Assembly: GCF_007859935.1 (NCBI RefSeq)
Contig: NZ_SJPO01000001.1
Span: forward strand, 186,001 to 250,000
DNA length: 64,000 nt
Direction of reading: 5' to 3'
From: Posidoniimonas polymericola
GTDB lineage: Bacteria > Planctomycetota > Planctomycetia > Pirellulales > Lacipirellulaceae
Below, piece after piece: positions 2,875-34,732 of the stretch (its first letter is position 1; every line of letters starts with the position of its first letter). Made by a program: the position numbers and the translations under genes. The notes beneath the pieces are model-generated. The model was given only the letters and a program-made list of their open reading frames with translations. It was not told where the DNA came from and did not search any database.

Positions 2875-3462
2875 CTACTCTGCCTTCTGCAACTCCTTCA
2901 GCACCTTGGCCACCGGCACGCGGCCGCCGTGGCTCTTGCTGACCACGGCGAAGGTCGCCTTGCGGTCCGGTCCGATGATGTAGGTAGAAGGGTAGGCGGT
3001 CTCGTTTGGCGCGTCCCACCGCAGGCCGTAGGCGTCGGTCAGCGCGTACTCGGGGTCGAGCACCATAGTGAGCGGCTCGGGCAGCTTCTTCTCGGCGAGG
3101 AACTCTTCGGCCCGCTCGGCCAGATTGCTGACGCCGCCCGGGTAGACCAGCACGACCTGCGCACCGGCCTCGCGCAGCTTGGCGGCCGCCTGGATGTACT
3201 CGCCGACCTGCCGAGAGCAGAGTGGGCACTGGTAACCGGGGTAGCCGCGAAGGACGACCAGCACGGTCGGGCCCTCGGCAAAGACCTTGGCGAGGTCGAT
3301 CGGTTTGTCGGCGCCGAATTCCGGCAGCGTCGGCGCCGGCGCGGTGTCGGCGACCTCGAGCGGCGTGTCGCGGATGGTGGGCTCGGCGGTGTCCGCGGCG
3401 TTCGCTGCCCCGGCGGTAAGGGCGGCGGCGAGCACGGAGAGGGCAATGCAGCGCGTCATCAT
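2875..3462 (-). CDS. Exported redoxin-family (AhpC/TSA-like) thiol protein
   Basis: 195 residues with a signal peptide (cleavage near residue 22, ANA-AD), so it acts outside the cytoplasm. The thioredoxin fold follows: beta strand VLVVLRGYPG, then the redox motif C79-P-L-C82, then QVVLVYPGG and later YPSTYIIGPDRK, which carries the cis-Pro-type strand. The CPLC pair sits where peroxiredoxins have the peroxidatic Cys (PxxxTxxC), so this is the CxxC type, better described as a peroxiredoxin-like or TlpA-like thiol oxidoreductase than a classical peroxidase. Substrate is unknown. It starts MM; the first ATG is used, the second would lose only one residue. Confidence 0.85.
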   Translation of the reverse strand: MMTRCIALSVLAAALTAGAANAADTAEPTIRDTPLEVADTAPAPTLPEFGADKPIDLAKVFAEGPTVLVVLRGYPGYQCPLCSRQVGEYIQAAAKLREAGAQVVLVYPGGVSNLAERAEEFLAEKKLPEPLTMVLDPEYALTDAYGLRWDAPNETAYPSTYIIGPDRKATFAVVSKSHGGRVPVAKVLKELQKAE

Positions 3463-3655
3463 GGCGACTCCTGGAGACTAGTTGCGGGTGAGGGCGAGCC
3501 CCATCCTACCGGCTCGCCGATGGCTGGTCGGTGTGCAGCCGCACACTACCGCTCGCCGTCAAAGTCAGCAGGACCCCGGTCACGCTGCGTGGTTCGGGCG
3601 TGGCGGTGCGGGCCGCCGCCTTGTTTGTTGGGTACGCAGGGCGGAGCTTGTAGCC

Positions 3656-5002
3656 TCACTCGGCCGACAGGTCCACGCACACGATCTCCTTGTCGTTCCG
3701 CGCGAACACCGCCTGGTACGCGAACGCCGGGCAGCTCCACACGACGTCGCGTCCGAACGAGCTGCTGGTCGGCGCCAGCACGTGCATGCGGCCGGTCTCG
3801 GTGTAGGCGTCGGGCGTCAGCCGGGCGGTGATCAGGTCGCCCTGCTCGTTGAACAGGAAGTAGTCGCCCGACGGCGTGTGGGGCACGACGAAAGCCGTGC
3901 CGTGCCGGCCGCGCTCGTCGCCCATGGTCGGCCGCTTGGTCGCCCACAGCCGCGACCCGTCCTCTGGGCTGAGCGCCACCAGCTCGCTGCTCTGGCAGTC
4001 GGGTCCGTAGATCGCTTCGGGCGTGAAGATCGGCGTGACGTTGGCCGCCTGCAGGCTGTCGCTCGCGCCGCCCGACCACAGCACCTCGACGTCCGACCCG
4101 TCGGGCTTCAACTGCATCAGCACCGACACGCCGCCGATCGCGCTGACGTACAGCTTGTCGCCCTGCTTCTGCGGCCGCGCGATCGCCATGCCGTAGGACG
4201 GCTTGGCCGGCACGCTCCAGATGACCTCGCCCGAGTTTGGCTTGAGCGCGTACAGGTTCTGCGGCGACCAGATTAACAGCTGCGGCTGCTTGCCCGCGAG
4301 AATGATATTCGGCGGGCAGTAGCCCGGCTCGGAGTCGTTGAGGGCAGACCACTTCTCTTCGCCGGTCTGCTTGTCGAACGCCACGACCAACGCGTCGGCC
4401 CCGCCGACCATGCAGTACAGGGTGTCGCCGTCTACCAGCGGGTGGGCCGCGTGCCCCCAGATCGGAGTGGCGGCGCTGTAGTCGTCCCTGAAGTTCTTCT
4501 TCCAGACCACCGAGCCGTCCGCTGTGTTGAGGCAGTGCAGGTCGCCCTCGGCGCCGAGCGTGTAGACGCGGTCGCCGTCGACCGTCGGCGTGCAGCGGGG
4601 GCCACCGCCGTACGAGACTCGGTACGGCCGCTTGTACTCGTGCTTCCAGAGCTCCTCGCCGGTCTCGGCGTCGAGGCAGCGCAGGCGTTCCGTGCCGTCC
4701 AGTTCGTCGGGGCGGCCGGCGGAGAAGGTCAGCTCGCCGTCGGTGATCTCGTACTCGAAGAGGAACACCTTGCCGTCCGCCACCGCCGGGCCGGCGTAGC
4801 CGGTGGCCGCCGGCACGCGCCACTTGATCGGCAGCCCGTCGGCCGGGATCTCGGTCACCACGCCCGACTCGCTGTAGGTCGCGTCGCGGTCGGGGCCGAG
4901 CCACTGCGGCCACTCGTCGGCGAGGGCGAGCGGCGAGAGGACGGAGCAGGCCAGCAAGCAGGCGGCGCAGCGATAGGCAACCGAGGACAGGCGGAGCGTC
5001 AT
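3656..5002 (-). CDS. Exported PQQ-binding-like beta-propeller repeat protein
   Basis: 448 residues from the ATG at 5002, which begins a signal peptide ending LALADEW; longer in-frame starts only add Pro/Gly-rich residues. The mature start EWPQWLGPDRD is the hallmark of the planctomycete outer-membrane BamB-like/PQQ-like propellers. Repeats of the form CLDAETGEELWKHEY, CLNTADGSVVWKKNF, AFDKQTGEEKWSALN and ALSPEDGSRLWATKR are propeller blades. No PQQ-dehydrogenase catalytic residues can be asserted, so it is probably a structural or binding protein of the periplasm rather than an enzyme. It is the second gene of a minus-strand run ending with the redoxin gene, but 193 bases separate them. Confidence 0.88.
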   Translation of the reverse strand: MTLRLSSVAYRCAACLLACSVLSPLALADEWPQWLGPDRDATYSESGVVTEIPADGLPIKWRVPAATGYAGPAVADGKVFLFEYEITDGELTFSAGRPDELDGTERLRCLDAETGEELWKHEYKRPYRVSYGGGPRCTPTVDGDRVYTLGAEGDLHCLNTADGSVVWKKNFRDDYSAATPIWGHAAHPLVDGDTLYCMVGGADALVVAFDKQTGEEKWSALNDSEPGYCPPNIILAGKQPQLLIWSPQNLYALKPNSGEVIWSVPAKPSYGMAIARPQKQGDKLYVSAIGGVSVLMQLKPDGSDVEVLWSGGASDSLQAANVTPIFTPEAIYGPDCQSSELVALSPEDGSRLWATKRPTMGDERGRHGTAFVVPHTPSGDYFLFNEQGDLITARLTPDAYTETGRMHVLAPTSSSFGRDVVWSCPAFAYQAVFARNDKEIVCVDLSAE

Positions 5003-5184
5003 GGCGTCATCCGGAGGGGGGGCGGGTGAGGTTCGTACCGAGTGTGAGAACTCGATCCTACGGCCCCCGCCTGCCCCGGGCAATGACACGCAGCCCGCCG
5101 CTGCGGCCTCCCTAAGTTACGGTGGCGGCCACGCCATCGGCGACGACACCGCCCCGAGACAGCCGATCTCGCTCGACGCCCGCC

Positions 5185-5529
5185 CTAACTACTGCGGACG
5201 ACCAGCCTTGCGAGCACCGCCAAGAAGAACACGCTGCCAGCTGCGTCGGCCGCCAAGAGCGGCGTCAGCCCATCGGCGTGCAGCCGGGCGCCGAGGAACA
5301 GCAGGTAGACCGAGCCGTACACCGCCGCGTGCAGCAGCAGCCACTCTAGCCGCCGCTCCGACGAGACCCGCGCCACGAGTGACACGCCCGCCCCCAGCGC
5401 AATCAACGCGACGCCGGTCAGCTCTGCCAGCCCGCTGCCGAGTGCGGCCAACGCGACCATCCCCACGCCAGCCAGCATCAGCCCCGGCGCAGCGGCAGGA
5501 GATTCAAGCGTCGAGAGCGTGCGTTGCAT
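5185..5529 (-). CDS. Small hydrophobic membrane protein of unknown function
   Basis: 114 residues from the ATG at 5529. Four hydrophobic stretches are visible: GLMLAGVGMVALAALG, LTGVALIALGAGVSLVA, LLLHAAVYGSVYLLFLG and LLAADAAGSVFFLAVLARLVV. The N-terminal 14 residues are polar. I do not recognise a family. No clear Shine-Dalgarno sequence precedes the ATG, and a longer frame to 5613 exists, so the start is uncertain. It is transcribed toward the propeller gene with 182 bases between them. Confidence 0.62.
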   Translation of the reverse strand: MQRTLSTLESPAAAPGLMLAGVGMVALAALGSGLAELTGVALIALGAGVSLVARVSSERRLEWLLLHAAVYGSVYLLFLGARLHADGLTPLLAADAAGSVFFLAVLARLVVRSS

Positions 5530-5782
5530 GGCGGGGCAGAGCGGGGGGCCAGGTCGGGAAGACGAGGAGGGACTCCCTCCAGCCTGATCAGCCCGGAGCA
5601 GTGCGCCAATCAACGCGGTGCGGTTGAGTGCCTAAGGAAAGCCGGCGCCGGTCCGGCTGTGCGGGCTGTAGCGGGCGCGATGGGGAGAGGGCCGGTAGAG
5701 ATGAACAGGAGAGGGCGGAGAGAGCAGAGTTGGTTTGGCCACAACGGCTAGCGGCCGAGCTTTCTGGTATCCTGCTTCCGCG

Positions 5783-6169
5783 ATGAAGCCACCGATCAGC
5801 CTCAGAATCACCGACAACCAAATTGGGTCGGGACGCGTTTGCGTGCCGGGCGATGTCGCCGTCTGTCACTGGGTTTGCCGGCGACGCAAAGGCGACATCC
5901 TCTTCGCATCGGATGCGGACTCGCCGCACCCAATTCGCGTCGGCGCCCGCGACTACTGTGTAGGGGTCGAGTACGGGCTGCTCGGGATGCGCGTCGGCGG
6001 GCGAAGGACGATTGTCGTCCCGCCGAATCTGACGTACGTTGAGCAGAAGATCTACCCAGAACTACCGGCAAACGGGCTGCTCATTTACCAGCTGGAGTTG
6101 ATCGACCTGCCCAAGAAGTGGGACCCCGATATGGAGCAGCGTCTGTCGCCGCCGCCGCCTTCAGGTTAA
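5783..6169 (+). CDS. FKBP-type peptidyl-prolyl isomerase-like protein
   Basis: 128 residues. The FKBP pattern can be read in order: GSGRVCVPGDVAVCHW, KGDILFAS (KG.....FDSS position), VGVEYGLLGMRVGGRRTIVVPPNL (the GW..gl.gM..G.k...ipp.l motif), YGxxG replaced by YVEQKIYPELPANGLLIYQLELIDL. FKBPs catalyse cis-trans isomerisation at proline. No signal peptide from the ATG at 5783, so cytoplasmic; an in-frame start at 5735 adds 16 residues without a ribosome site. Key aromatic active-site residues are only partly kept, so activity is uncertain. Convergent with the lipoprotein gene. Confidence 0.75.
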   Translation: MKPPISLRITDNQIGSGRVCVPGDVAVCHWVCRRRKGDILFASDADSPHPIRVGARDYCVGVEYGLLGMRVGGRRTIVVPPNLTYVEQKIYPELPANGLLIYQLELIDLPKKWDPDMEQRLSPPPPSG

Positions 6170-6250
6170 GAGGGGCTGAGCGACGCTTAAGATCGGGGCA
6201 GCGACTCTAGCTTGCTCAGGGGATCCCACTTGGAAGAGCCGGCCCCTTTC

Positions 6251-6817
6251 TCAATCCGCCACGCGACGAGCTCGATTCGACGGTGCGCTGACAATTTCCT
6301 CTATGTGCTTCCGAACGCAGTTGAGAAGGTCGTTGCCATCGGCTGTGATGGTGCTGCACCACATGCCGTGTTCGATCACGGCGGAGTACCCGTCCTCCGC
6401 CATGCACTCGGCAAGCTCTTGGGGCTTGTCGATGAAGCGATAGAAAAGCCATTCGTCTTGAATGGCGGCGACGGCAAGGTACTTGCTACCCGCGAAGCCC
6501 TCGCCTACGAGCTGCAATTCGAGTAGGGCTTGGCTATGGTCATCGTTGAGGGAAACGGCTTGGCAAATTGCTTTGCAGACCTTTCCCTCAAAGCTGATTT
6601 CGTACCGACCGTCCTGCAAACGGCGCACGCTATAGGGCTCGCCGGCGGGATCGTCGCCAAACACGGGAGATTCAAAGGACTGCCACTTGCCCTCCAGGGG
6701 AAATCGCGAAGCCTGCGGGTCGGTGACTATAGCTCTTGCAACAATGACCGACGTACTCTTATCACATCCCAAGAAGAGTAGGGCGGAGAGACCAAGCACC
6801 GTAGCTGTCTTAACCAT
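6251..6817 (-). CDS. Predicted lipoprotein of unknown function
   Basis: 188 residues with a lipoprotein signal: MVKTATVLGLSALLFLGC, where LFLGC is the lipobox and C18 would be acylated. The rest is a soluble domain with GKWQSFESPVF, YSVRRLQDGRYEISFEGKVCKAICQAV and WLFYRFIDKP. This layout resembles small beta-barrel lipocalin-like planctomycete lipoproteins, but no family was recognised. AGGGG about 8 bases upstream of the ATG serves as ribosome site. Base composition is clearly lower in G+C than its neighbours and codon use looks different, which is compatible with recent acquisition. Confidence 0.75.
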   Translation of the reverse strand: MVKTATVLGLSALLFLGCDKSTSVIVARAIVTDPQASRFPLEGKWQSFESPVFGDDPAGEPYSVRRLQDGRYEISFEGKVCKAICQAVSLNDDHSQALLELQLVGEGFAGSKYLAVAAIQDEWLFYRFIDKPQELAECMAEDGYSAVIEHGMWCSTITADGNDLLNCVRKHIEEIVSAPSNRARRVAD

Positions 6818-7009
6818 GGAGGCACCCCTGTTAGTAGCAACCTGTCAGGCGGAGAGGTGGTGAACAGCAGCGTCAACAGGCGAGCGCATTGCCGACGCGA
6901 CGAGCCGCAAATGTGAATCAACTGAAAACATCTAGGGCGAGCCATCTCTCTGCGCGGTTGCTAGCGTGTGCGCCTTGCCTCGCGGGCTGACGAGGTAGTC
7001 CACAGCAGC

Positions 7010-7028
7010 CGACGGATTACATCCGTCG
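7010..7028. repeat. Dispersed palindrome CGACGGAT-N3-ATCCGTCG, copy 1
   Basis: Perfect 8-bp arms around TAC. The same arms around TGC occur at 11907-11925, and both copies are followed by related sequence (ACCTGGGGTTGTGGTTGC here, ACCCGGGATTGAGATTGC there). It is probably one end of the MITE-like element described at 8636 and 11904; the partner end is not clear at this locus. Confidence 0.65.
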
Positions 7029-7120
7029 GACGGACCTGGGGTTGTGGTTGCAATCTCGCAGGGCATGCGCCGTAGCCCCGACTGCGGGACTCCTCATCCA
7101 CTCGGCGAACGCCCCAATTC

Positions 7121-7150
7121 CTGGCAGGGGGTTCCGTTGGCATTTATAAT
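7121..7150 (+). promoter_or_regulatory. Sigma-70-type promoter for the GH43-like gene
   Basis: CTGGCA at 7121-7126, 18 bases, then a perfect TATAAT at 7145-7150. It points at the gene starting at 7334, giving a leader of roughly 175 bases. No experimental support. Confidence 0.5.
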
Positions 7151-7333
7151 AATGAGGCTCTCGGAACAGGGCTCTTACTATGGCGCTCTCTGCGGTCGCA
7201 GGTCGGATTCGAAGGCCTGGCCAGAGGGCCCGCTTCTGGGGGAAGCAACCGCCTTTCTTCCCCGCTCACTGATGGCCGCTCCGCGCGGCCCAACCGTCGG
7301 CGCCTCCCGCGATTGACCTCGAAAGACCTCCCC

Positions 7334-8635
7334 ATGTTTGCTGCTACGCGTCACGCCGATTCGCCCAACCAGACTCGCTACCGCTGCGGGCTGGCCTTCG
7401 TGCTGATGGCGGCCGCGCTCGCGCCGGGCGTGGCGGTGGCCGCGAACGGCACGGGGCAGGTCTTTGCCTACTTCCAGGGCCCGTGGCCGACCGGCGGGCA
7501 CAGCGGCGTCTACATGAGCTACAGCTCCGACGGGCTCAACTTTCAGCCGATGAACAACGGCGACCCGGTGTACGTCCCGCCTGAGGCTTGGGGCCCCGGC
7601 TCCAGCACCAACACCATCGACGAAGACCAGACCCGCGACCCGTCGGTCCTGTACGGGCCGGACGGCTACTTCCACATGGTGTGGACCTCGGGCATCTCGA
7701 CGCGGTCGATCGGCTACGCGAAGTCGGCCGACCTGAAGACCTGGACCGACGAGCAGCTGATCGACATCTGGAGCCCCAGCACGGTGGTCGACCACACCTG
7801 GGCGCCCGAGCTGTTCTACGACGCCGCGAACTCGCAGTACCAGATCATCTTCGCGTCGAACCTGAACGGCGGCGACCACAAGCTGTACTCGATCACCACG
7901 AGCGACTTCTCGAGCTTCAGCACGGCCGACCCCAACAACCCGTACTTCTACAACGGCGCCACGATTATCGACGCGATGATCGCGGAGGACTCGGCCAACA
8001 ACCGCTACCTGATGGCGGTGAAGGACGAGCAGAACGGCGCCAAGAACATCCGCCTGGCGACCGCCCCGACCGCGCAGGGGCCGTGGACCACCGACAACCC
8101 GGTCATCGTCGGGCCCGGCTCGGCGATCGAGGGGAACGTGACCGAGGGGCCCTCGCTCCTCAAGGTCGACGACACCTGGCTGCTGTACTACGACGCCTAC
8201 GGCGCCGGCTACTTCGGCGTCGCGGCCACGTCGGACGCCGACCCGGCCAACGCCGCCTCGTGGGTCAACCTGACCGGCGACGCGAACCTGCCCGACGGCC
8301 ACCACGGCACGGTGTTCAACGCCCCTAACAGTGTGCTGTCGTTCGACTTCCTGCCCTACTCGCGCAGCGATCTAAACGGCGATCAGGACCTCACCCCCGA
8401 CGACTGGCTGCTATTCCTGGGCAACCACCTGACCACCACCAGCATCGGCGACCTCGACGCCGACGGCGACAACGACTTCGACGATTTCCGCCTGTTCAAG
8501 ACCGACTACGAGACGTTCCACGGATCGGGCGCGTTCGCGTCGATGCTGGCCTCGGTCGCCGCGCCGGAACCGTCGGCGGCGCTGCTGGCGCTGATGGGCG
8601 TGCCCGTGGTGTTGGGGCGGCGTCGCGGGAAGTAG
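7334..8635 (+). CDS. Exported GH43-like five-bladed propeller protein with dockerin-like segment and PEP-CTERM tail
   Basis: 433 residues from the ATG at 7334; a TTG at 7313 is in frame but less likely. Order: signal peptide (residues ~15-36, ending AVAANG); a propeller region with DPSVLYGPDGYFHMVWTS, HTWAPELFYD and TEGPSLLKVDDTWLLYYDAY, motifs typical of glycoside hydrolase family 43/62/117-type folds acting on arabinans, xylans or algal polysaccharides; at ~344-395 two EF-hand-like repeats (DLNGDQDLTPDDW, DLDADGDNDFDDF) as in type I dockerins; then PEP (~410), a hydrophobic helix and GRRRGK. So it is a secreted, probably surface-retained carbohydrate-active or binding protein. Substrate cannot be decided from sequence. 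Confidence 0.85.
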   Translation: MFAATRHADSPNQTRYRCGLAFVLMAAALAPGVAVAANGTGQVFAYFQGPWPTGGHSGVYMSYSSDGLNFQPMNNGDPVYVPPEAWGPGSSTNTIDEDQTRDPSVLYGPDGYFHMVWTSGISTRSIGYAKSADLKTWTDEQLIDIWSPSTVVDHTWAPELFYDAANSQYQIIFASNLNGGDHKLYSITTSDFSSFSTADPNNPYFYNGATIIDAMIAEDSANNRYLMAVKDEQNGAKNIRLATAPTAQGPWTTDNPVIVGPGSAIEGNVTEGPSLLKVDDTWLLYYDAYGAGYFGVAATSDADPANAASWVNLTGDANLPDGHHGTVFNAPNSVLSFDFLPYSRSDLNGDQDLTPDDWLLFLGNHLTTTSIGDLDADGDNDFDDFRLFKTDYETFHGSGAFASMLASVAAPEPSAALLALMGVPVVLGRRRGK

Positions 8636-8733
8636 CCGACGGATGCCACCCGCCGGACGGGCCCGGTGCTGAGGTCGTTCAGCAGCGAACCGTCGAACCG
8701 TCGCCCCCGAACGATGCAATCCATCGGCTAGCG
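8636..8733. repeat. MITE-like element, ~97 bp, copy between convergent genes
   Basis: The left end reads GCCGACGGATGCCACC and the right end, read on the opposite strand, GCCGATGGATTGCATC, so the ends are inverted repeats. The same layout and length occur at 11904-12002. It fills the whole gap between the GH43-like stop (8635) and the UPF0126 stop (8740) and could fold into one long hairpin acting as a bidirectional terminator. No coding capacity. Confidence 0.6.
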
Positions 8734-8739
8734 GATTGC

Positions 8740-9381
8740 CTACGGGTCGGCTGGCTCGGACGCTTCGTCCTCCACCCCGTCCGAGTACGCCGGCAGTTTC
8801 CAGTCGTACCGCAACGCGGCCAGGCGGAACGCGATGATCAGCGTGACCCCGATCGGCGCCGCGAAGCCGTTGGCCGCGGGGAACTGCTTGAGGCCGGCGT
8901 ACAGCAGCGCGCCGGTGAACGAGCAGGTCGCGTACATCGGCGTCGACGGTCGGAAGATGCTGGGGATGCGGTTGCAGATCGTGTCGGCCATCACGCCGCC
9001 GAAGGTGCCGGTCACCGCGCCCATCATCGCGGCGATGAACAGCGGCGCGCCCTCGGCCAACGCGGCGCCTGCGCCGGCGATGCTGAAGAACGCCAGGCCG
9101 ATGGCGTCGGGGATGTTCAGGCTCCGCTCGGTCTGCTCCGGGAGCTTCGGCAGGAAGAACGCCGCCACGGCCATCGCGAACACAATCACGGGGTAGTGCG
9201 GGGCCGCGATCCAGAACAGCGGGTGGCGGTCGAGGAACAGGTCGCGCAGCGTGCCGCCGCCGAACGCGACCATGAACGCCACGCTGTACACCCCGACAAA
9301 GTCGAGCTTCAGCCGTCGCGCCAGCAGCACGCCGTACAACGCGCTGAACACAACCGCCAGGAATTCGACAATCTGCAGCAT
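8740..9381 (-). CDS. UPF0126/TRIC-like inner-membrane protein
   Basis: 213 residues, seven hydrophobic segments arranged as two repeated halves. Each half has the UPF0126 signature: AFGGGTLRDLFLDRHPLFW in the first and GAVTGTFGGVMADTICNRIPSIF in the second. Family members include E. coli YicG, linked to glycine uptake, and they are structurally related to trimeric intracellular cation channels. Length is normal for the family (~205). Which substrate it moves here is not known. Single gene, convergent with the GH43-like gene, head-to-head with the dehydrogenase at 9671. Confidence 0.88.
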   Translation of the reverse strand: MLQIVEFLAVVFSALYGVLLARRLKLDFVGVYSVAFMVAFGGGTLRDLFLDRHPLFWIAAPHYPVIVFAMAVAAFFLPKLPEQTERSLNIPDAIGLAFFSIAGAGAALAEGAPLFIAAMMGAVTGTFGGVMADTICNRIPSIFRPSTPMYATCSFTGALLYAGLKQFPAANGFAAPIGVTLIIAFRLAALRYDWKLPAYSDGVEDEASEPADP

Positions 9382-9670
9382 TTGGGGGCGGTGCGGCGGT
9401 TGGGAGGGGGGGTGGGATGGGGGTAGCCCCTCATTCTAGCACCGGGCCCCCGGGCGTTCGATTGCCCGCAGCCTTGGGTTGCCGGGCCTGCTCGCCGGGA
9501 CGCGGCTGCGGGCGGTATCCACGCAAGGTGGTTCGATTCGTGCCAATCGGAGAATCGGCGGGGGGCCACTGCCTGCGCAGGCAGCCCCGTGCGTGCCTTC
9601 GCGGCATTGGCATAGGGAGTGCACTTAAGAGGGGCATAACCGTAACGAAACAACCGTCTAGGAGTACGCC

Positions 9671-11035
9671 ATGACCATTACTGCCGTAAGCCCTGCTACG
9701 AACAAGCCGATCAAGACCTTCAAAGAGATGTCGAAGAAGGAGTGCCTGGCGGCTGTCGGCAAGGCCGACGACGCGTACCAGCAGTGGCGCGCCACTTCGT
9801 ACGATCAGCGGAAGCAGGTGATCCTGGCGTTTGCCAAGGAGCTCCGCAACCGGACCGACGAGCTCGCCCGGCTGATCACGCTCGACATGGGCAAGCGGAT
9901 CTCCGAGAGCCGCCGCGAGATCGAGTACTGCGCCGAGATCGCCGAGTTCTACGCCAACGGCGCCGAGGAGTTCCTGGCCGACCAGCCGATGGACCGCGTC
10001 CCCGAGAACGCCTACCTGCACTACGAGCCGCTCGGCGTGCTGCTGGGCGTGATGCCGTGGAACTTCCCGTTCTACCAGGTCGTCCGGTTCGCCACGCCCA
10101 ACCTGATGGCGGGCAACACCGTGCTGGTCAAGCACGCCAGCAACGTGCCGCAGTGCGCCCAGGCGATCGAGAGCCTGTTCGCCGAGTGCGGCCTGCCCGA
10201 CGGCGCGTACGCCAACCTGTTTGTCCCGACCGACTACGTCGAGGACATCATCGCCGACCACCGCGTGCAGGGCGTGTCGCTGACCGGCAGCGAGAAGGCC
10301 GGCGCGGCGGTCGCCGAGTTGGCGGGCAAGCACCTGAAGCGGTCGGTGCTGGAGCTCGGCGGCAACGACCCGTTCATCGTGCTCGAGGACGCCGACATCG
10401 CCCAGGCGGCCGAGCTGGCCGTGCAGGGCCGGATGGTCAACGCCGGCCAGTCGTGCGTCGCGTCTAAGCGGTTCATTGTCGTCAAGTCCGTGGCCGATGA
10501 GTTCCTCGAGCGCTTCAAGGAGGCATTGGGAGAGCTTGAGCCCGGCGACCCGCTCAACGAAGACACGACCCTCGCGCCGCTCTCGACCGAGGACGCCGCG
10601 CAGCAGCTGCACGACCAGGTGCAGAGCGCCATCGACGCCGGCGCAACCGTGCTGCTCGGCGGCGACCGCCCCGACCGCGACGGCGCCTACTTCAACCCGA
10701 CGATCCTGACCGGCGTCACGCCCGACTCGCCGACCTTCGACCAGGAGCTGTTCGGCCCCGTGGCCACCGTGTACGTCGTGAAGGACGAGGACGAGGCCGT
10801 CGAGCTCGCCAACCGCTCGTCGTATGGTTTAGGCGGCAGCGTCTACACCCAGGACAAAGACCGCGGCCAAAGAGTCGCCGAACGGGTCGAAACCGGTATG
10901 ATGTTCCTCAACCAGCCAACCAAGTCCCAGGCCGAGCTGCCGTTCGGCGGCATCAAGAACTCCGGCTACGGCCGCGAGCTGTCGCATCTCGGGATCCTGG
11001 AGTTCGTGAACAAGAAGCTGGTTCATCTGGGGTAG
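9671..11035 (+). CDS. gabD: NAD(P)-dependent succinate-semialdehyde dehydrogenase (GabD1/Sad type)
   Basis: 454 residues, the short form of the family. Aldehyde dehydrogenase landmarks are all present: MPWNFPFYQV (Asn of the oxyanion hole), the Rossmann KHASNVP and TGSEKAG, general base E228 in LELGGNDPF, and nucleophile C262 in NAGQSCVASKRF. It would oxidise succinate semialdehyde to succinate, closing a GABA or 2-oxoglutarate bypass into the TCA cycle; related aldehydes are possible. The ATG at 9671 has GGAG 6-8 bases upstream. No gab operon partners are nearby, so the physiological substrate is inferred from family only. Confidence 0.88.
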   Translation: MTITAVSPATNKPIKTFKEMSKKECLAAVGKADDAYQQWRATSYDQRKQVILAFAKELRNRTDELARLITLDMGKRISESRREIEYCAEIAEFYANGAEEFLADQPMDRVPENAYLHYEPLGVLLGVMPWNFPFYQVVRFATPNLMAGNTVLVKHASNVPQCAQAIESLFAECGLPDGAYANLFVPTDYVEDIIADHRVQGVSLTGSEKAGAAVAELAGKHLKRSVLELGGNDPFIVLEDADIAQAAELAVQGRMVNAGQSCVASKRFIVVKSVADEFLERFKEALGELEPGDPLNEDTTLAPLSTEDAAQQLHDQVQSAIDAGATVLLGGDRPDRDGAYFNPTILTGVTPDSPTFDQELFGPVATVYVVKDEDEAVELANRSSYGLGGSVYTQDKDRGQRVAERVETGMMFLNQPTKSQAELPFGGIKNSGYGRELSHLGILEFVNKKLVHLG

Positions 11036-11183
11036 GGCGCCCGTTGAAGCAGCGCAGGTCCGGCTGCGAGTAGCGTTAATCCGACTCTGCTAGGGCGCCT
11101 CCTTTGCCGCCAAGGAACGCCATTCCCTCTACCGGGCTGCTGCGTCTTCAGTGCCGCCCTGCAAGCCGGGGTTTGTCGGAATT

Positions 11184-11753
11184 TCATCGGGACCAGCTCT
11201 CGGATTTCATCGATTCCCGGTCGGCGGAGGTGGGCTTGGCGATCGTGCCGTAAAGAAAATCTCCGATCGGCAACGCAACGTTGAAGTTCTTGTTGGGGTG
11301 CCGATGGTGCAGGAAGTGGTGCCTCGCGACAAACTTGTAGAGCGGCCAGCTTGAGAAGAAACGATCCTCGGGCTTGTGCATCTCCATGTGCACCTGATTC
11401 CATAGAACGTGGTGCAGACACACGACGATCGGAAACATGAGCGCGGCCGTCGTCGAGAAACAATAGAGCAGCAGGCTGACGGGCAGTGACTCGATTAATC
11501 CTTCCCGCAGGTTCAGCCGAATGCCACGGTCCTCGCCGTGCGGCAACGGCTCGTCGTGAAAGACCTTGCGGTACTGGCCGTGGTGGTCGACCGCATGGCT
11601 CATGAAGATCTTGTTCCGCACCGCGAGTCGCCGCAAGAACAAGAATCGCGGCTTCTTGTGCATCAGGCGTTGGTGCACCTGGTGCTCAATGAGCGACATC
11701 AGCACGACAAGAACGGGAAACCAGAGAAGGACCTGCCACACTTGCCACAGCAT
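11184..11753 (-). CDS. Fatty acid hydroxylase/sterol desaturase superfamily membrane protein
   Basis: 189 residues. Three hydrophobic stretches (LLWFPVLVVLMSLIEH, LPVSLLLYCFSTTAALMFPIVVCL) frame the histidine clusters of the non-haem di-iron superfamily: HQVHQRLMH, HAVDHHGQYRKVFH, HHVLWNQVHMEMH and HHFLHHRHPNKN. Such enzymes use O2 to hydroxylate or desaturate lipid chains in the membrane. The protein is short (families are usually 200-300), mainly lacking N-terminal helices, but the His boxes are complete. Local G+C is lower than that of neighbours. Substrate unknown; single gene. Confidence 0.78.
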   Translation of the reverse strand: MLWQVWQVLLWFPVLVVLMSLIEHQVHQRLMHKKPRFLFLRRLAVRNKIFMSHAVDHHGQYRKVFHDEPLPHGEDRGIRLNLREGLIESLPVSLLLYCFSTTAALMFPIVVCLHHVLWNQVHMEMHKPEDRFFSSWPLYKFVARHHFLHHRHPNKNFNVALPIGDFLYGTIAKPTSADRESMKSESWSR

Positions 11754-11903
11754 TTTGATCTAAGAAGCCATTGACGATCTGCGAAAGAGGAACCTTTCGC
11801 GCTTGCTAGTGCTCTGCCGAAGCAGGAACTGCATGGGAAACAGGAGCGTACTCCCCGCTGGCCCCGCAGTCTAGGTGGACCTGGGCGTCTAACCTGCCGC
11901 TCT

Positions 11904-12002
11904 AGGCGACGGATTGCATCCGTCGGGCGAACCCGGGATTGAGATTGCCTCACATGGAGAGCCATCCCCGGGGCCTCCGGTTGACGCAATCCATCGGCGA
12001 TT
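11904..12002. repeat. MITE-like element, ~98 bp
   Basis: The left end contains the perfect palindrome CGACGGAT-TGC-ATCCGTCG (11907-11925). The right end, read on the opposite strand, is CGCCGATGGATTGCGTC, so both termini share the core CGAYGGATTGC in inverted orientation. It resembles the element at 8636-8733 in length and ends and lies just downstream of the ActP stop at 12018. No coding capacity; likely a non-autonomous repeat. Confidence 0.62.
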
Positions 12003-12017
12003 GCCGTCGCGGTTGGT

Positions 12018-13739
12018 TTACGCCGCCGCCGCGTCCTCGTGCCGCGGCGTCATCAGCGACACCACGACCAGCGTCAGGAAGCCGAGCGGGATCGTCACGA
12101 TCCCCGGCTGGCTGAACGGGGTGAGCCAGCCGGACTCCAGGCCGTAGACCATCGTGAAGGTGTCCTCGCTCAGCAGGATCCAGGCGAGCGAGCTCACCAT
12201 GCCCATGAGGATGGCGGCGATGATGCCCTGCTTGGTGGTCCGCTCCCAGAACAGCAGCATCACCAGCGCGGGGAGGTTGGCCGACGCGGCGACACTAAAC
12301 GCCCAGCCGACCAGGTAGCCGACGTTCATCGTTTCGAACACGATGCCAAGCGCGATGGCGATCGCCCCGACCACGACCGAGGCGATCTTGGCGATCCTCA
12401 CCCGCTGGTGGTCGGTGAGGTCCTCGATGGCCATGGTTTCGACGAGGTCGTGGGCGACGGCGCCGGCCGAGGCCAGGATCAGGCCGCTGACGGTGCCGAG
12501 CACCGTGGTGAAGGCAATCGCCGAGATGATGGCGAACAGCGTGGGGTCGATGGTCTTAGCCAGCAGCGGCGCGGCCATGTTGGAGTTGAAGTTGAAGATC
12601 TCCCCGCTGGTCATCGCCCCCAGGCCGAGGTACAGCGTCAGCACGTAGAAGAAGCCGATGCACGCGATGCCGACGATCGTGCTCTTGCGGGCGGCGGCCT
12701 CGTCGCGGACGGTGTAGTAGCGGATCAGGATGTGCGGCAGCGACGCGGTGCCGCAGAACAACGCCAGCATCAGCGACAGGAAGTTGAGCTTGTCGACCAG
12801 CTTGTCACTGCGGATGCCGGTGAACTTCTCGCCCGGCTTCATGACGTCGGCGCCCGGCTTCTTGGTGGGCGTGTAGGTGGTGGTTTCGACGCCGTCGACG
12901 CTTGTTGGGCCGTCCTTGGTCCACAGCACGACCTCGCTGTTCTGCAGCGTGCTGAAGAACTCGAGCGGGCCGAGCGGCCCGGTGCTCTTTTCTCCGTCCG
13001 GCAGCGAGACGACCTCGCTGATCGGCCGCTCGGCCGCGGCGGCCGCTTCCTCGTCGGCGGGCTGGCCGTTGACTGTAACGCCTGACTCGGAGCGGACGAT
13101 CACCTGCTGCTCAATCGGGCGGTCGGTCACGGTGAAGCCGCGGCCGAGGATCAGCACGGTCAGCACCGCGCTGAAGATCACCAGCAGCGAGCCCTTGAGG
13201 AACTGCACCCACGTGGTCGAGACCATGCCGGCGGTTACAACAATCAGGATCACCACGGCGCCGACTACGACTACGCCGGCCCACGGCGGCCAGCCCAGCA
13301 GCGGGTAGACCAACGCGCCGGCGCCGACCATCTGCGGGATCAGGTAGAACACGCTCACCGCCAGCGTGCTGACGCCGGCGGCGATCTTGATGCCGGGCGA
13401 GTCGAAGCGGTGGTTTAGCGCGTCGGCGAAGGTGAATTTTCCAAGCCGCTTCATCGGCTCGGCCACGACAAACAGGGCCACGATCCAGCCCGCCAGGAAG
13501 CCGATGGAGTAGAGGAACCCGTCGTACCCCTTGAAGGCGATCAGGCCGCAGATGCCTAGGAACGACGCCGCGGAGAGGTAGTCGCCGGCGAACGCCACGC
13601 CGTTCACAAACCACGGGATCTGACCGTGCGCGGCGAAGTAGCCCTGCGAGCTGCTCGCCTGACGGCCGAGGTAGAAGCTGATGCCGAGCGTCAGCCCGAC
13701 AAACGCCAGAAAGATCCAGACAGCGGGGTCGATGCCCAT
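12018..13739 (-). CDS. actP: Sodium/solute symporter, acetate permease-like (ActP type)
   Basis: 573 residues with about 13 membrane helices of the SSS family. Recognisable parts are FYLGRQASSSQGYFAAHGQIPW, the Na-site helix FAGDYLSAASFLGICGLIAF, and FCGTASLPHILIRYYT, a signature of the ActP branch. A long polar loop (roughly residues 200-310, ending near GEKFTGIRSDKLVDK) is larger than in E. coli ActP. The start at 13739 overlaps the stop of the DUF485 gene by one base (TAATG), showing translational coupling. It imports acetate or a similar short carboxylate with Na+. Substrate is inferred from family. Confidence 0.85.
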   Translation of the reverse strand: MGIDPAVWIFLAFVGLTLGISFYLGRQASSSQGYFAAHGQIPWFVNGVAFAGDYLSAASFLGICGLIAFKGYDGFLYSIGFLAGWIVALFVVAEPMKRLGKFTFADALNHRFDSPGIKIAAGVSTLAVSVFYLIPQMVGAGALVYPLLGWPPWAGVVVVGAVVILIVVTAGMVSTTWVQFLKGSLLVIFSAVLTVLILGRGFTVTDRPIEQQVIVRSESGVTVNGQPADEEAAAAAERPISEVVSLPDGEKSTGPLGPLEFFSTLQNSEVVLWTKDGPTSVDGVETTTYTPTKKPGADVMKPGEKFTGIRSDKLVDKLNFLSLMLALFCGTASLPHILIRYYTVRDEAAARKSTIVGIACIGFFYVLTLYLGLGAMTSGEIFNFNSNMAAPLLAKTIDPTLFAIISAIAFTTVLGTVSGLILASAGAVAHDLVETMAIEDLTDHQRVRIAKIASVVVGAIAIALGIVFETMNVGYLVGWAFSVAASANLPALVMLLFWERTTKQGIIAAILMGMVSSLAWILLSEDTFTMVYGLESGWLTPFSQPGIVTIPLGFLTLVVVSLMTPRHEDAAAA

Positions 13740-13981
13740 TACTTCTGCCCCCCCGCGCCGTTGGCGTCCTGCGAGCCGCGGCACATCCAGCCGTAGATCA
13801 TCGCCAGCACGAACGCCACGATGATCAGGGCGAACCCGTACCAGATGGCGAGGTTCACGCCGGCCGCCGGCGTGGCCTCCATCGCTTCTGGCTTGAAGGC
13901 AGTTAGCAGCACGAAGCCGCCGTAGAACACCAGGTACACGAGGAACAGCCGGAGGCCGATCCGGGCGTTGCGTTGAGCCAT
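13739..13981 (-). CDS. DUF485-type small membrane partner of the symporter
   Basis: 80 residues with two membrane helices: LRLFLVYLVFYGGFVLLTAF and AIWYGFALIIVAFVLAMIYGWM. This is the YjcH/DUF485 layout found directly upstream of actP in many bacteria, thought to be an accessory subunit. Its stop codon overlaps the ATG of the symporter, so the two are made together. The tail is short and polar. Confidence 0.82.
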   Translation of the reverse strand: MAQRNARIGLRLFLVYLVFYGGFVLLTAFKPEAMEATPAAGVNLAIWYGFALIIVAFVLAMIYGWMCRGSQDANGAGGQK

Positions 13982-14129
13982 AGAGCAGATTCCGGCAGAG
14001 CAGATGAGCGGACGAGAGCGTCTAGACTAATCCAAACTCTGTGCCGATGGTAGCGCTGAGGGCTCGGCGGCGGTCGGTGCGCTGTGGTGTCCTGCAGGAG
14101 GGCTCGCACGGCTGCCCGGTTGGCAGCGG

Positions 14130-14810
14130 CTAGGCGATGGTCTCGCTGGGGGGGATCGGCGTGGCGCCGCCGGTCAGCTGGACGGAACTCGCCTTGCGCT
14201 CGTCGAGCTCGCAGGCGGCCTTGACGCACATGCCGAGGTCGCGGAGCCGGCCGTCGTTGAGGCCGTAGATCCAGCCGTGCACGGCCAGCGGCTGCGCCCG
14301 GTCCCAGGCGTCGCGGACGATGGTGGTGCGGCAGAGGTTCGCGACCTGGGCGATTACGTTCAGCTCGCACAGGCGGTTGACCTTCGCGGTCGGGTCGGTG
14401 ATCGAATCGAGGTGCTGCCGGTGCTCGTTGCGGACGTCCTGGATGTAGCGGAGCCAGTTCTCGATCAGCCCCAGCTTCTGCTCGGCGAGCGCCGCCGCGA
14501 CGCCGCCGCAGCCGTAGTGGCCGCAGACAATGATGTGCTCGACCTTCAGCGCCTCGACCGCGTACTGCACGACCGACAAGCAGTTGACGTCCGAGTGCAC
14601 GACCAGGTTCGCCACGTTGCGGTGCACGAACAGCTCGCCCGGGTCGAGGCCCACCACCTGGTTGGCCGGCACGCGGCTGTCGGCGCAGCCGATCCACAGG
14701 TACTTGGGCGCCTGCTGCTTCGACAGCCGGTCGAAGAACGCGGGGTCGGCCTCGGTGGTCTTGCGGGACCAGTCGGCGTTCTTCTGGAACAGTTCGGGGA
14801 GGGCTCTCAT
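14130..14810 (-). CDS. can: Beta-class carbonic anhydrase
   Basis: 226 residues, close to the usual ~220. Zinc ligands are C42 in WIGCADSR, and H98 and C101 in GHYGCGG; the D44-R46 dyad is kept. Further family motifs are PGELFVHRNVANLV, LSVVQYAVEAL, CELNVIAQV and HGWIYGLNDGRLRDL. It interconverts CO2 and bicarbonate in the cytoplasm. It lies downstream of a SulP transporter on the same strand with 62 bases between, so bicarbonate handling by the pair is likely. The C-terminal 30 residues are divergent. Confidence 0.93.
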   Translation of the reverse strand: MRALPELFQKNADWSRKTTEADPAFFDRLSKQQAPKYLWIGCADSRVPANQVVGLDPGELFVHRNVANLVVHSDVNCLSVVQYAVEALKVEHIIVCGHYGCGGVAAALAEQKLGLIENWLRYIQDVRNEHRQHLDSITDPTAKVNRLCELNVIAQVANLCRTTIVRDAWDRAQPLAVHGWIYGLNDGRLRDLGMCVKAACELDERKASSVQLTGGATPIPPSETIA

Positions 14811-14872
14811 GGTTGCCTCTCTTGGGGGCGAAGGGGATGTTGAGGAAGTTTACGGGTCGGCCGCGCCAGCGG

Positions 14873-16813
14873 CTAGCGCGGGGCTGCTTCGGCAGACCGG
14901 GGCGACTGTCCGACCGGGCTGAAACGCGCGTGCAGCGATTCCCAGTCGATCACGAGCCGCCCGCCGGTGTTCTCGTGCTGCTTGGCCCAGGTCATCATCA
15001 GCTCCAGGCAGGCGTGATCGATGTAGCGGAGGTCCTGGAAGTCGACGTGCAGCTCGCACCCGGGGGGGACCTTCTCGAGCTCCGCCGCCAGCATCGGCAG
15101 GCGGATGAAGGTCGCTGCGCCGTGCAGCTGCAGCCGGCAGATGCGCTCGTTGTCGGCGTCGGTGCGGAGGTGGGCCTCGAGGTGGCTGAAGGTGTACAGC
15201 AGCTTGAATGCGGCCAGAGCGATGCCGACCAGCACGCCGGTCAGCAGGTCCTCGGCGACAATCGTGATGACTGTTGCGAAGTAAATCAGGACCTCGCTCT
15301 TGCCGTAGTTGGCCAGCTTGCGGATGTCATTGATGTTGACCAGCTTGAAGCCGGTGTAGACCAGGATCGCCGCCAGGCACGCGGTGGGGATCTGCCGCAG
15401 CAGGAAGCCGAACACCGCCACAAACAGCAGCAGCCACACGCCGTGCAGGATGGCCGACGCGCGGGTCTGACCGCCCGCCTGGATGTTGGCCGAGCTGCGG
15501 ACAATCACGCCGGTCATCGGCAGCACGCCGAGCACACCGCACACCGTGTTGCCGACCCCCTGCGCGAACAGCTCGCGATCGTAATTGGTGCGGACGCCGT
15601 TGTGCAGCTGGTCGACCGCGGTGGCGCACAGCAGGGTCTCGGCGCTGGCGACCACGGCGATCAGGATCGCGCTCTTCAGGAGCGCCGCGATGCCGGTCTC
15701 GTGCACCACGGCCCACGACGGCAGGTGCACGCCCTCCCACAGCCGGTCGGGGATCTCCACGTACAGCACCGGCAGCGCGAACGCCGCGGCGATGAGCGTC
15801 CCGACGCAGACCGCCACCAGTGGGCCGGGGATCAGCTTCAGCGACTTCGGGACGAACTGCCAGCCGATGATCGACAGGATCGACAGCACCCCGACCCACG
15901 CCGCGAAGTGGTGGTTCTTGAGGCTGACCAGCAGCTTCTGGATCGCCGCCACCGACGCGTCCTGCTCGGTGAGGATCGCCGCCGGGTCGCCCCCGCTGAA
16001 TGCCGCCAGCGCCGCGTGGTTCTGCTCGACCGCCGCGTCGGCCGCCGCCGCCGCCCGGGCGGCCCGCTGGGGGGTGGCGAAGTGCTCGTCGAGCCGCTGC
16101 AGCTTGGCGGTCGCGGACTCGAGGTCGTCCTGGATCGCCTGCTGCACGACGGCCAGGGCCTCGAGGTCGGCGGCGTCGGCGGTGCGTTGCGTCTCGGTGT
16201 ACTCGAGCTCCGGGTTGTGCACGTGCGGGTAGATCTCCGCGACCCGCTCCTCAAGGTCCTGCTGCCGGCGGTGCAGCTCGCCGACTTCCTGCAGCATGTC
16301 GCGGCGGAAGCGGCGTGACTCCTGGCTCTGCACGCTCGGCCACGCGAACGACTTGGCCACCGCCTGCGGGATGGTCACCAGGTTCTCAATGCCGTTGCCC
16401 TTCGGCTTGTCGTCGACCATCACGTGCAGCTGGCTGCCGATGATCAGCACACCGATGCCGGCCAGCATCCCCCGCACCACCGCCGGCGAGACCGCGCGGA
16501 ACCATTGGCCCAAGCGGAGCAGACCGGCGGCGCCCTGCAGCAGCCCCGCCATCAGCACCGCCACGCCGAGCGACTCCAGGCCGAACTCCCGCACCAGATC
16601 GAGGATGATCACCGTCAGGCCGGCCGCCGGGCCGCTCACCTGCAGCGGGCAGCCCGCGATGAACCCCACCACCAGCCCGCCCACGATGCCGGTGATCAGC
16701 CCCGCCGCCACCGGCACGCCCGACGCGATCGCGATGCCCATGCAGAGTGGCAGCGCCACCAGGAACACCACGAACGACGCCATCAGGTCTTGTTTGAACG
16801 TGCTTGCGTTCAT
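14873..16813 (-). CDS. SulP-family anion transporter with STAS domain and a coiled-coil insert
   Basis: 646 residues. The first ~155 residues contain the SulP start (DLMASFVVFLVALPLCMGIAIASG, GFIAGCPLQVSGPAAGLTV). Residues ~160-298 are then a polar, charged, mostly helical insert (RRFRRDMLQEVGELHRRQQ..., AARAAAAADAAVEQNHAALA) that normal SulP proteins lack at this place. The membrane region resumes at AAWVGVLSILSIIGWQF and includes a normal ATAVDQLHNGVRTNYDRELFAQG and GVIVRSSANI. A STAS domain (~555-630, VDFQDLRYIDHACLELMM) closes the protein. With carbonic anhydrase next to it, bicarbonate is the likeliest substrate, but sulfate cannot be excluded. Confidence 0.88.
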   Translation of the reverse strand: MNASTFKQDLMASFVVFLVALPLCMGIAIASGVPVAAGLITGIVGGLVVGFIAGCPLQVSGPAAGLTVIILDLVREFGLESLGVAVLMAGLLQGAAGLLRLGQWFRAVSPAVVRGMLAGIGVLIIGSQLHVMVDDKPKGNGIENLVTIPQAVAKSFAWPSVQSQESRRFRRDMLQEVGELHRRQQDLEERVAEIYPHVHNPELEYTETQRTADAADLEALAVVQQAIQDDLESATAKLQRLDEHFATPQRAARAAAAADAAVEQNHAALAAFSGGDPAAILTEQDASVAAIQKLLVSLKNHHFAAWVGVLSILSIIGWQFVPKSLKLIPGPLVAVCVGTLIAAAFALPVLYVEIPDRLWEGVHLPSWAVVHETGIAALLKSAILIAVVASAETLLCATAVDQLHNGVRTNYDRELFAQGVGNTVCGVLGVLPMTGVIVRSSANIQAGGQTRASAILHGVWLLLFVAVFGFLLRQIPTACLAAILVYTGFKLVNINDIRKLANYGKSEVLIYFATVITIVAEDLLTGVLVGIALAAFKLLYTFSHLEAHLRTDADNERICRLQLHGAATFIRLPMLAAELEKVPPGCELHVDFQDLRYIDHACLELMMTWAKQHENTGGRLVIDWESLHARFSPVGQSPRSAEAAPR

Positions 16814-34704: not shown

Positions 34705-34732
34705 TATCCGGCGAGCTACGTCTCGCCGGATA
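34705..34732. repeat. Palindrome TATCCGGCGAG-N6-CTCGCCGGATA
   Basis: Perfect 11-bp arms and a 6-base loop, between the fucosidase start and the pheT stop. It may end the pheT transcript (44 bases past its stop) or belong to a dispersed intergenic repeat family. No T-run follows on the minus strand. A second, smaller hairpin (GCGGGC-N5-GCCCGC) overlaps the pheT stop at about 34770. Confidence 0.85.

Follow-up and report, generated by a model that had tools for sequence, protein, structure and literature searches.

A family of inverted hairpin doublets and its candidate REP transposase-like partner in Posidoniimonas polymericola

In Pseudomonas fluorescens SBW25 and other bacteria, the moving unit described by Bertels and Rainey (2011, PMC3116915) is a doublet of repetitive extragenic palindromic (REP) sequences, the REPIN, and singlets are its remnants. 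As far as PMC8266576 describes it, the enzyme TnpAREP cuts single-stranded REPs at CT, and in one system also at CA, near the hairpin, with the foot of the hairpin helping to choose the site; in Stenotrophomonas maltophilia, cutting was abolished when the last two foot bases were changed and only reduced with CTAG, and GCAG was barely cut. REPINs, REPtrons and REPs in Planctomycetes are already known from the account of Di Nocera et al. (2013, PMC3733652), which singles out R. baltica for its many tyrosine transposase genes flanked by repeats, and a planctomycete-rich class 3 of HuH proteins from that of Quentin et al. (2018, PMC6006769). Here we describe a family of hairpin doublets found in a 64,000-nt stretch of the planctomycete Posidoniimonas polymericola (contig NZ_SJPO01000001.1, positions 186,001 to 250,000), hereafter the window; in our numbering it is G000:C1:186001-250000, where G000 is the window's genome (6,262,701 bases), C stands for a contig and L for a numbered locus. 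The elements are very probably REPINs, that is inverted REP doublets, and likely substrates of a REP-associated tyrosine transposase (RAYT)-like protein of the HUH/Y1 kind that is encoded once, between a head and a tail REP.

The doublets and their hairpins

Two 21-nt palindromes (CCGAYGGATTACATCCRTCGG) in inverted orientation make up the unit of the family, and their usual spacing is 68-72 or 53-55 nt. When two mismatches were allowed, the palindrome CCGAYGGATNNNATCCRTCGG was matched 42 times in the genome and its reversed control 0 times; this bears out an earlier, sequence-only reading of the window, which had joined the elements at 8636 and 11904 and an end copy at 7010 into one family (placed by their arms at 8633-8730, 11903-12000 and 7009-7029) and had proposed such a genome-wide search. 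When 59 genomes were searched with a pattern one base longer than CCGAYGGATNNNATCCRTCGG and at most one mismatch, the window's genome (32 forward matches) and one congener (26 forward) were rich, two others had one single-mismatch match each and 55 had none; the exact pattern was not found in a contig collection, a result of little weight since that collection may leave out records close to the window's genome. Of the 46 sites read, 27 are in the window's genome and 19 in the congener; 33 retain both ends, 18 and 15 respectively.

All doublets read have the same orientation, head first and its inverse, the tail, second, with a middle of mostly 32-51 nt and a start-to-start spacing that, over 33 doublets, was 68-72 nt in 22, 53-55 in 9, 61 in one and 108 in one. 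The palindromes fold into a stem of 9 bp closed by a loop of three nucleotides, which is TAC in 71 of 79 arms. Their foot has the consensus C-A-G-T/C-A-G, in which AG is near-invariant (76 and 78 of 79), and the conserved zone stretches from about -7 to +29 as counted from the stem. The foot tetranucleotides among the 79 arms included GTAG (27), CTAG (11), ATAG (11) and GCAG (10). The stems show compensatory changes: at positions 5/17 the pair is C-G in 54 of the 79 arms and T-A in 22, and at 6/16 it is G-C in 67 and A-T in 10. Among the 225 possible pairs in 25 distinct arms, 199 were Watson-Crick, a number equalled by 0 of 2000 shuffles, although it is biased by the palindromic pattern with which the arms were collected. 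Pairing of an arm with itself failed at 24 of 594 positions as against 92 of 594 for pairing end to end, so that each end is maintained as a hairpin of its own. When folded alone as DNA, the window elements were slightly better than shuffles (12 and 9 of 200 were as good), and four intact elements were matched by 0 of 200 shuffles each. Where both stems of a doublet are intact, 17 of 18 are heterodimers, the single homodimer comparing with 6.7 expected by shuffling (36 of 20000 shuffles were as low).

Most copies read TAG...CTA (the foot triplet is TAG in 51 of 79), which can also be taken as a TA followed by a terminal inverted repeat (TIR). The family would then be a miniature inverted-repeat transposable element (MITE) of the IS630/Tc1-mariner kind, with the structure TA-TIR...TIR-TA, moved by a DDE transposase into TA targets; such TA MITEs are common in bacteria. 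However, C replaces T in 23 of the 79 feet, conservation extends outward of the TA, the ends retain their internal hairpins by paired changes, and it is a Y1-like gene, described below, that bears these ends. Four DDE_3 matches (on C13, on C7 and at C1:886706) are without a nearby palindrome: C7 and C13 carry none at all, and on C1 the closest is about 319 kb away. We therefore hold a TA-target MITE to be highly improbable. The sequence-only reading had spoken of a non-autonomous, mobile, MITE-like family, and this survives as to kind, given the 27 sites, the near-confinement to two congeneric species among the 59 genomes searched and a transposase-like gene with matching ends; the family is not a classical MITE, since each end is its own hairpin, the candidate enzyme is of the HUH/Y1 rather than the DDE kind, and no duplicated target can be seen, conservation ending about 6-7 nt outside the stem.

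The sites have a preferred setting. By crude gene calls, on which all placements relative to called genes in this section rest, 41 of the 46 fall between genes, 4 overlap a called frame and 1 is at a contig end; 14 of the 46 lie between convergent genes (28 of 146 background gaps) and 5 between divergent ones (34 gaps). Together with the strength of the hairpins, this mostly intergenic setting could point to transcription terminators or structured 3' RNA elements that are kept by host selection and do not move, in line with the "processed terminator repeat" of the sequence-only reading. Yet the window copies have no T-run, and terminator-like sites are absent from 8633-8730 and from 7009, their number in 6900-12100 (4) being at the level of shuffles (3.4, sd 2.1); two weak ones, which overlap each other at 11995-12010, lie across an end that has decayed in one copy. 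There was also no Rfam match at the gathering score in window positions 5000-15000, the family is confined to one genus among the 59 genomes searched, unlike the genes that adjoin it, and the same hairpins flank the Y1-like gene. Of the rival explanations, a static terminator or RNA element is to our mind the least probable.

The copies in the window are decayed, with 6-8 of 9 stem pairs per arm. The REPIN copy at 8633-8730 (+ strand) has its head at 8636-8656 and its tail at 8707-8727, both decayed to 7 of 9 pairs, and reads TAG...CTA; the one at 11903-12000 (+ strand) has its head at 11906-11926 (8 of 9 pairs) and its tail at 11977-11997 (6 of 9 pairs), and reads TAG...CGA. A single or decayed copy at 7006-7051 (+ strand) has a CAG foot at 7006-7008, an intact head palindrome at 7009-7029 and the conserved stretch after it, the tail not being recognisable. 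A 45-nt direct repeat starts at 7007, 8634 and 11904 (the latter two at 76% and 82% against the first), and the far ends of the two longer elements have a 31-nt repeat in common (8698 and 11968, 77%). As the sequence-only reading had it, two of these elements are at gene stops: the TAG foot at 8633-8635 doubles as the stop codon of the preceding gene, and the 11904 copy lies 18 nt beyond the stop of the minus-strand gene on its right. The 7009 copy sits between divergent genes. A TAG foot is likewise the stop codon of a neighbouring gene in L052, L136, L140, L144, L147 and others, and over the whole family TAG feet end an open frame of at least 150 codons in 11 of 51 cases, slightly more often than other TAGs do (341 of 2916). 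Mixed doublets, in which a window-family tail is combined with the head of another, still self-complementary stem type (e.g. CGGCGAG...CTCGCCG or CCGAGGGCC...GGCC), were seen at L059 2833-2926, L051 2946-3035, L141 3294-3384, L139 about 2811-2902 and L147 4290-4381.

The partner gene and its neighbourhood

The candidate partner gene was found by reading between two far-spaced arms of L049 (G000:C1:516500-523000), where the arms, a head at 3013 and a tail at 3684, enclose a frame of 184 codons at 3047-3598, the gene plus its flanking ends occupying C1:519511-520204. This HUH/Y1 transposase-like frame is the kind of gene, a transposase with matching ends, that the sequence-only reading had thought worth looking for, and it is not among the genome's six PF01797 matches. 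The known Y1_Tnp genes had also been considered as partners and were rejected, as the six PF01797 places are not beside a family palindrome (the nearest is about 8 kb away, on C9) and a loose scan of 1.5-kb flanks found none. In the congener, a relative 60-61% identical stands between two whole doublets (C5:163537-163628 and C5:164173-164264), which have a 104-nt direct match between them, and the gene neighbourhood is syntenic, the two genomes agreeing at 90% over 1222 nt and at 79% over a further 624 nt.

Both species have one close gene per genome, the next paralogue being at 48%. This second gene (C1:522213) begins 2.7 kb on, and further paralogues are at C9:221010 and C1:401646. A GGCGAGCTACG-type hairpin flanks the C1:522213 paralogue. 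This type is matched 57 times in the genome when three mismatches are allowed and 46 times when two are allowed, with 0 matches in the control; one match lies in the window, at 34706. The latter is a single palindrome of this second REP family (34705-34732, strand not assigned), probably cognate to the C1:522213 gene and outside the family of the sequence-only reading. Another palindrome of the second family, G000:C3:191554-191577, is about 0.4 kb from an ordinary Y1_Tnp match (C3:191995-192216), which may be chance.

Places common to both species are window 11903-12000 and L145 3785-3874, L052 3087 and L136 3132, L054 2914 and L142 2688, and the gene loci L049 and L146; private places include L143 2835 and L144 3057, both confined to the congener, and L045 2985, confined to the window's genome. 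Because shared and private places both occur by synteny, part of the family is older than the species split and part lineage-specific. Next to the first of the shared places, about 2.5 kb of the window (9382-11903, an aldehyde-dehydrogenase-like gene and a further frame) is missing at the congener's syntenic place, where the flanks are 20 nt apart. An unrelated short repeat (80-115 nt, 78-87% identical) is also common to both genomes (L142 1739-1851, L046 4855-4965, L047 2778-2856).

The protein clade and its cognate hairpins

All 21 relatives in alignment A3 have H101, H103 and Y161, and all 23 in alignment A4 have the equivalent residues (H86, H88 and Y146); A3 also has a well-conserved start, MPCYLFTYHAYGSWMPDRxQGYV. 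Y1_Tnp matches at E <= 0.01 were obtained for 9 of the 21 A3 rows (best 2.5e-7) and 9 of the 23 A4 rows (best 1.2e-4), and at the same threshold 4 of 21 A3 relatives match the REP transposase model NF047646 (best 9.8e-4). We file the protein as RAYT-like because the cognate proteins themselves do not match the curated REP transposase model at E <= 0.01; their best Pfam/NCBIfam E-values, 0.27 and 0.082, are to unrelated families. A sequence search of the PDB with the profile gave E 0.28 and worse, with the IS608 transposase second and third.

The fold was predicted for the relative L180, which is in A4 with 22 others, and not for the cognate protein. The L180 model (predicted local distance difference test, pLDDT, 95.1; predicted template modelling score, pTM, 0.87) has a predicted HUH fold, and its 19 Foldseek matches at E <= 0.001 were IS200/IS605-type transposases and the E. 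coli REP transposase 4er8 (E 1.6e-4, rank 5), sequence identity to IS200/IS605 being about 10%. In VIA-align, IS200/IS605-type chains reached Z 12.7-14.1 and 4er8 11.0 over 121 residues; the IS200/IS605 rows mostly stop at model residue 134-138, before the tyrosine at 146, 2fyx reaching 150 and 4er8 160.

That the predicted fold is nearest to IS200/IS605 enzymes, that 7 of 21 A3 relatives match the NCBIfam IS200/IS605 model at E <= 0.01 and that the gene of the window's genome lies between one head and one tail could all suggest an insertion sequence of that type, with the gene-bearing copy as autonomous parent and the other copies as its internally deleted derivatives. The ends of IS200/IS605 elements are not known to be inverted, however, and those of this family are. 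Moreover, the gene itself has not spread in the two species, as there is one close gene per genome, in a syntenic place, and the congener gene is flanked by two whole doublets. We find this origin very unlikely, if a shade less so than a TA-target MITE, and prefer to read the doublets as REPINs with a RAYT-like partner.

In a set of 296 genomes of the order, 106 match the profile. Among the matches listed, a list without the weakest matches and without 170 genomes that had none, those above 100 bits are in 27 genomes, 24 of them among the 43 given as family f1 and 3 from other families, the next match being at 81 bits. A named collection contributed 26 loci, including Lacipirellula limnantheis and Adhaeretor mobilis (both broken frames), Aeoliella straminimaris and a Bythopirellula, as well as members from a Phycisphaerales metagenome-assembled genome (MAG) and an Acidobacteria MAG. 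The member on the contig labelled Acidobacteria MAG (L193 1649-2197) has one like-built hairpin downstream, and could reflect an interphylum transfer or a misplaced contig. In the tree, the 34 clade rows stand together save for the long-branch L133 among them, with a single origin in 36% of bootstrap trees, and the clade is likely monophyletic. The tree and the whole-matrix test of protein and hairpin distance given below leave out L192 and L203 (broken frames, also left out of A4 and kept in the hairpin counts).

We sought hairpins starting AGCC around 36 distinct loci (47 before merging places seen in two collections), the counts being made without L163 and L169 (broken frames), L205 (a fragment), the weak matches L170-L175, and matches for which no locus was used, such as the paralogues C9:221010 and C1:401646 and the new loci L206-L231. 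Such a hairpin was present within 350 nt of the gene at 28 of the 36 loci, and on both sides at 20. There were 78 hairpins in 30.3 kb near genes as against 9 in 104.0 kb further off, fully symmetrical hairpins being counted on both strands, i.e. twice, and other four-letter feet taken as controls gave 0-2 near genes (the TAGCC row is not comparable, its stem being read one base early). The base ahead of the last three letters of the foot is free (ATAG 31, CTAG 21, GTAG 8, TTAG 5 and others 13, n=78). The stems differ between gene lineages, and nearest protein neighbours had an identical arm in 11 of 27 cases against 1.0 expected (0 of 20000 permutations), in a test devised after the whole-matrix comparison given below. 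G034 has 20 copies of the hairpin that goes with its own gene, against a single copy in five other genomes taken together. These results tie an intergenic repeat to a specific gene, and suggest that several REP-transposase pairs, distinct in their hairpins, can coexist in one genome of this planctomycete family.

Several observations weigh against a REPIN/RAYT interpretation. At the three private places compared between the two species (L143, L144 and L045) no empty site of the kind envisaged by the sequence-only reading could be aligned. The four intact elements, when folded alone, favour one long hairpin over two small ones, and 8 of the 36 loci are without an AGCC-foot hairpin at the thresholds used. 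The whole-matrix (Mantel) comparison of protein and hairpin distance gave a Spearman coefficient of 0.105, a value reached by 524 of 5000 permutations and thus without significance. The two cognate proteins have no Pfam, NCBIfam or PHROGs match at E <= 0.01, and in VIA-align 4er8 (Z 11.0) is practically tied with Thg1 (Z 10.7), an unrelated protein.

Comparison with known systems

By analogy with the TnpAREP enzymes of E. coli, Stenotrophomonas and Marinomonas, the protein would bind REP hairpins on single-stranded DNA and would nick next to the foot via its tyrosine; the doublet could then be joined or copied into new, mostly intergenic sites, and the lone REPs may be remnants of doublets. 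Binding, cleavage and mobilisation along these lines are what we infer for the family. For annotation, proteins with weak matches or none to current family models would thereby gain a likely role. The 28 gene-hairpin loci would also offer a natural series on how such enzymes read stem, loop and foot, and bear on the heterodimer tendency, which has no obvious explanation in the account of Di Nocera et al. (2013, PMC3733652).

A more far-reaching proposal can be made only tentatively, and we think it more doubtful than not: the proteins could be a class of REP transposases in their own right, as yet undescribed, that has its centre in a single planctomycete family and uses a relaxed guide foot, N[T/C]AG, and REPINs of the window's genus might have to combine two different REP variants. 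If so, the long hairpin formed end to end would lose stability through the mismatches of its two ends, to the advantage of the two-hairpin form that the enzyme cuts. A plain alternative for the heterodimer excess is descent from one heterodimeric master copy. Judged by published motif descriptions and not by a common tree, the clade appears to differ from the published classes, and no title listed in literature searches on RAYT/Planctomycetes, Lacipirellulaceae transposase, Planctomycetota REPs and REPtron/TnpAREP names it.

Like the class 3 HuH proteins as described by Quentin et al. (2018, PMC6006769), the clade is planctomycete-rich, has an extended conserved N-terminus and has genes flanked by repeated hairpins, and class-3-like proteins turn up as weak matches of the profile. 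The class 3 description, however, gives NHVH, W[TA], YV[VI][AENY]EQ and a CnGA foot, in place of which we find [TSQ]HxH, mostly W[FL], YLPxH and a [T/C]AG foot. The NHVH and YV..EQ motifs are thus absent from alignments A3 and A4, and CnGA from the feet, so that the clade does not fit the description of that class. With the predicted fold and HUH-Y1 layout of the IS200/IS605 transposases (ISDra2 and IS608 in the PDB), the likeness stops at the ends, which are here inverted and dispersed without the gene, and at the low sequence identity already mentioned.

The GTAG-tagged REPs and REPtrons, as Di Nocera et al. (2013, PMC3733652) present them, resemble our elements in the unpaired foot tag on a short stem, the head-to-head dimers, the preference for heterodimers and the Planctomycetes hosts; a difference, to go by that description, is that GTAG is here the commonest foot but short of a majority (27 of 79) and is rare by the genes of the relatives (8 of 78). 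The REPIN/RAYT system of SBW25 (in the account in PMC3116915) is similar in its unit, an inverted REP doublet, in having one RAYT with an adjoining REPIN cluster per type and in having several RAYTs per genome, and differs in that we count 27 sites here, that the protein group is divergent and that excision was seen there by sequencing, whereas movement here is presumed. Finally, to go by PMC8266576, the hairpins are like those of TnpAREP group 3 (Stenotrophomonas maltophilia and Marinomonas) in the perfect short palindrome, the small loop, the strict AG and the variable first foot base. The protein group differs from theirs. C stands in place of T in 23 of our 79 feet, a poor fit to the S. 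maltophilia TnpAREP, but most of the feet fit.

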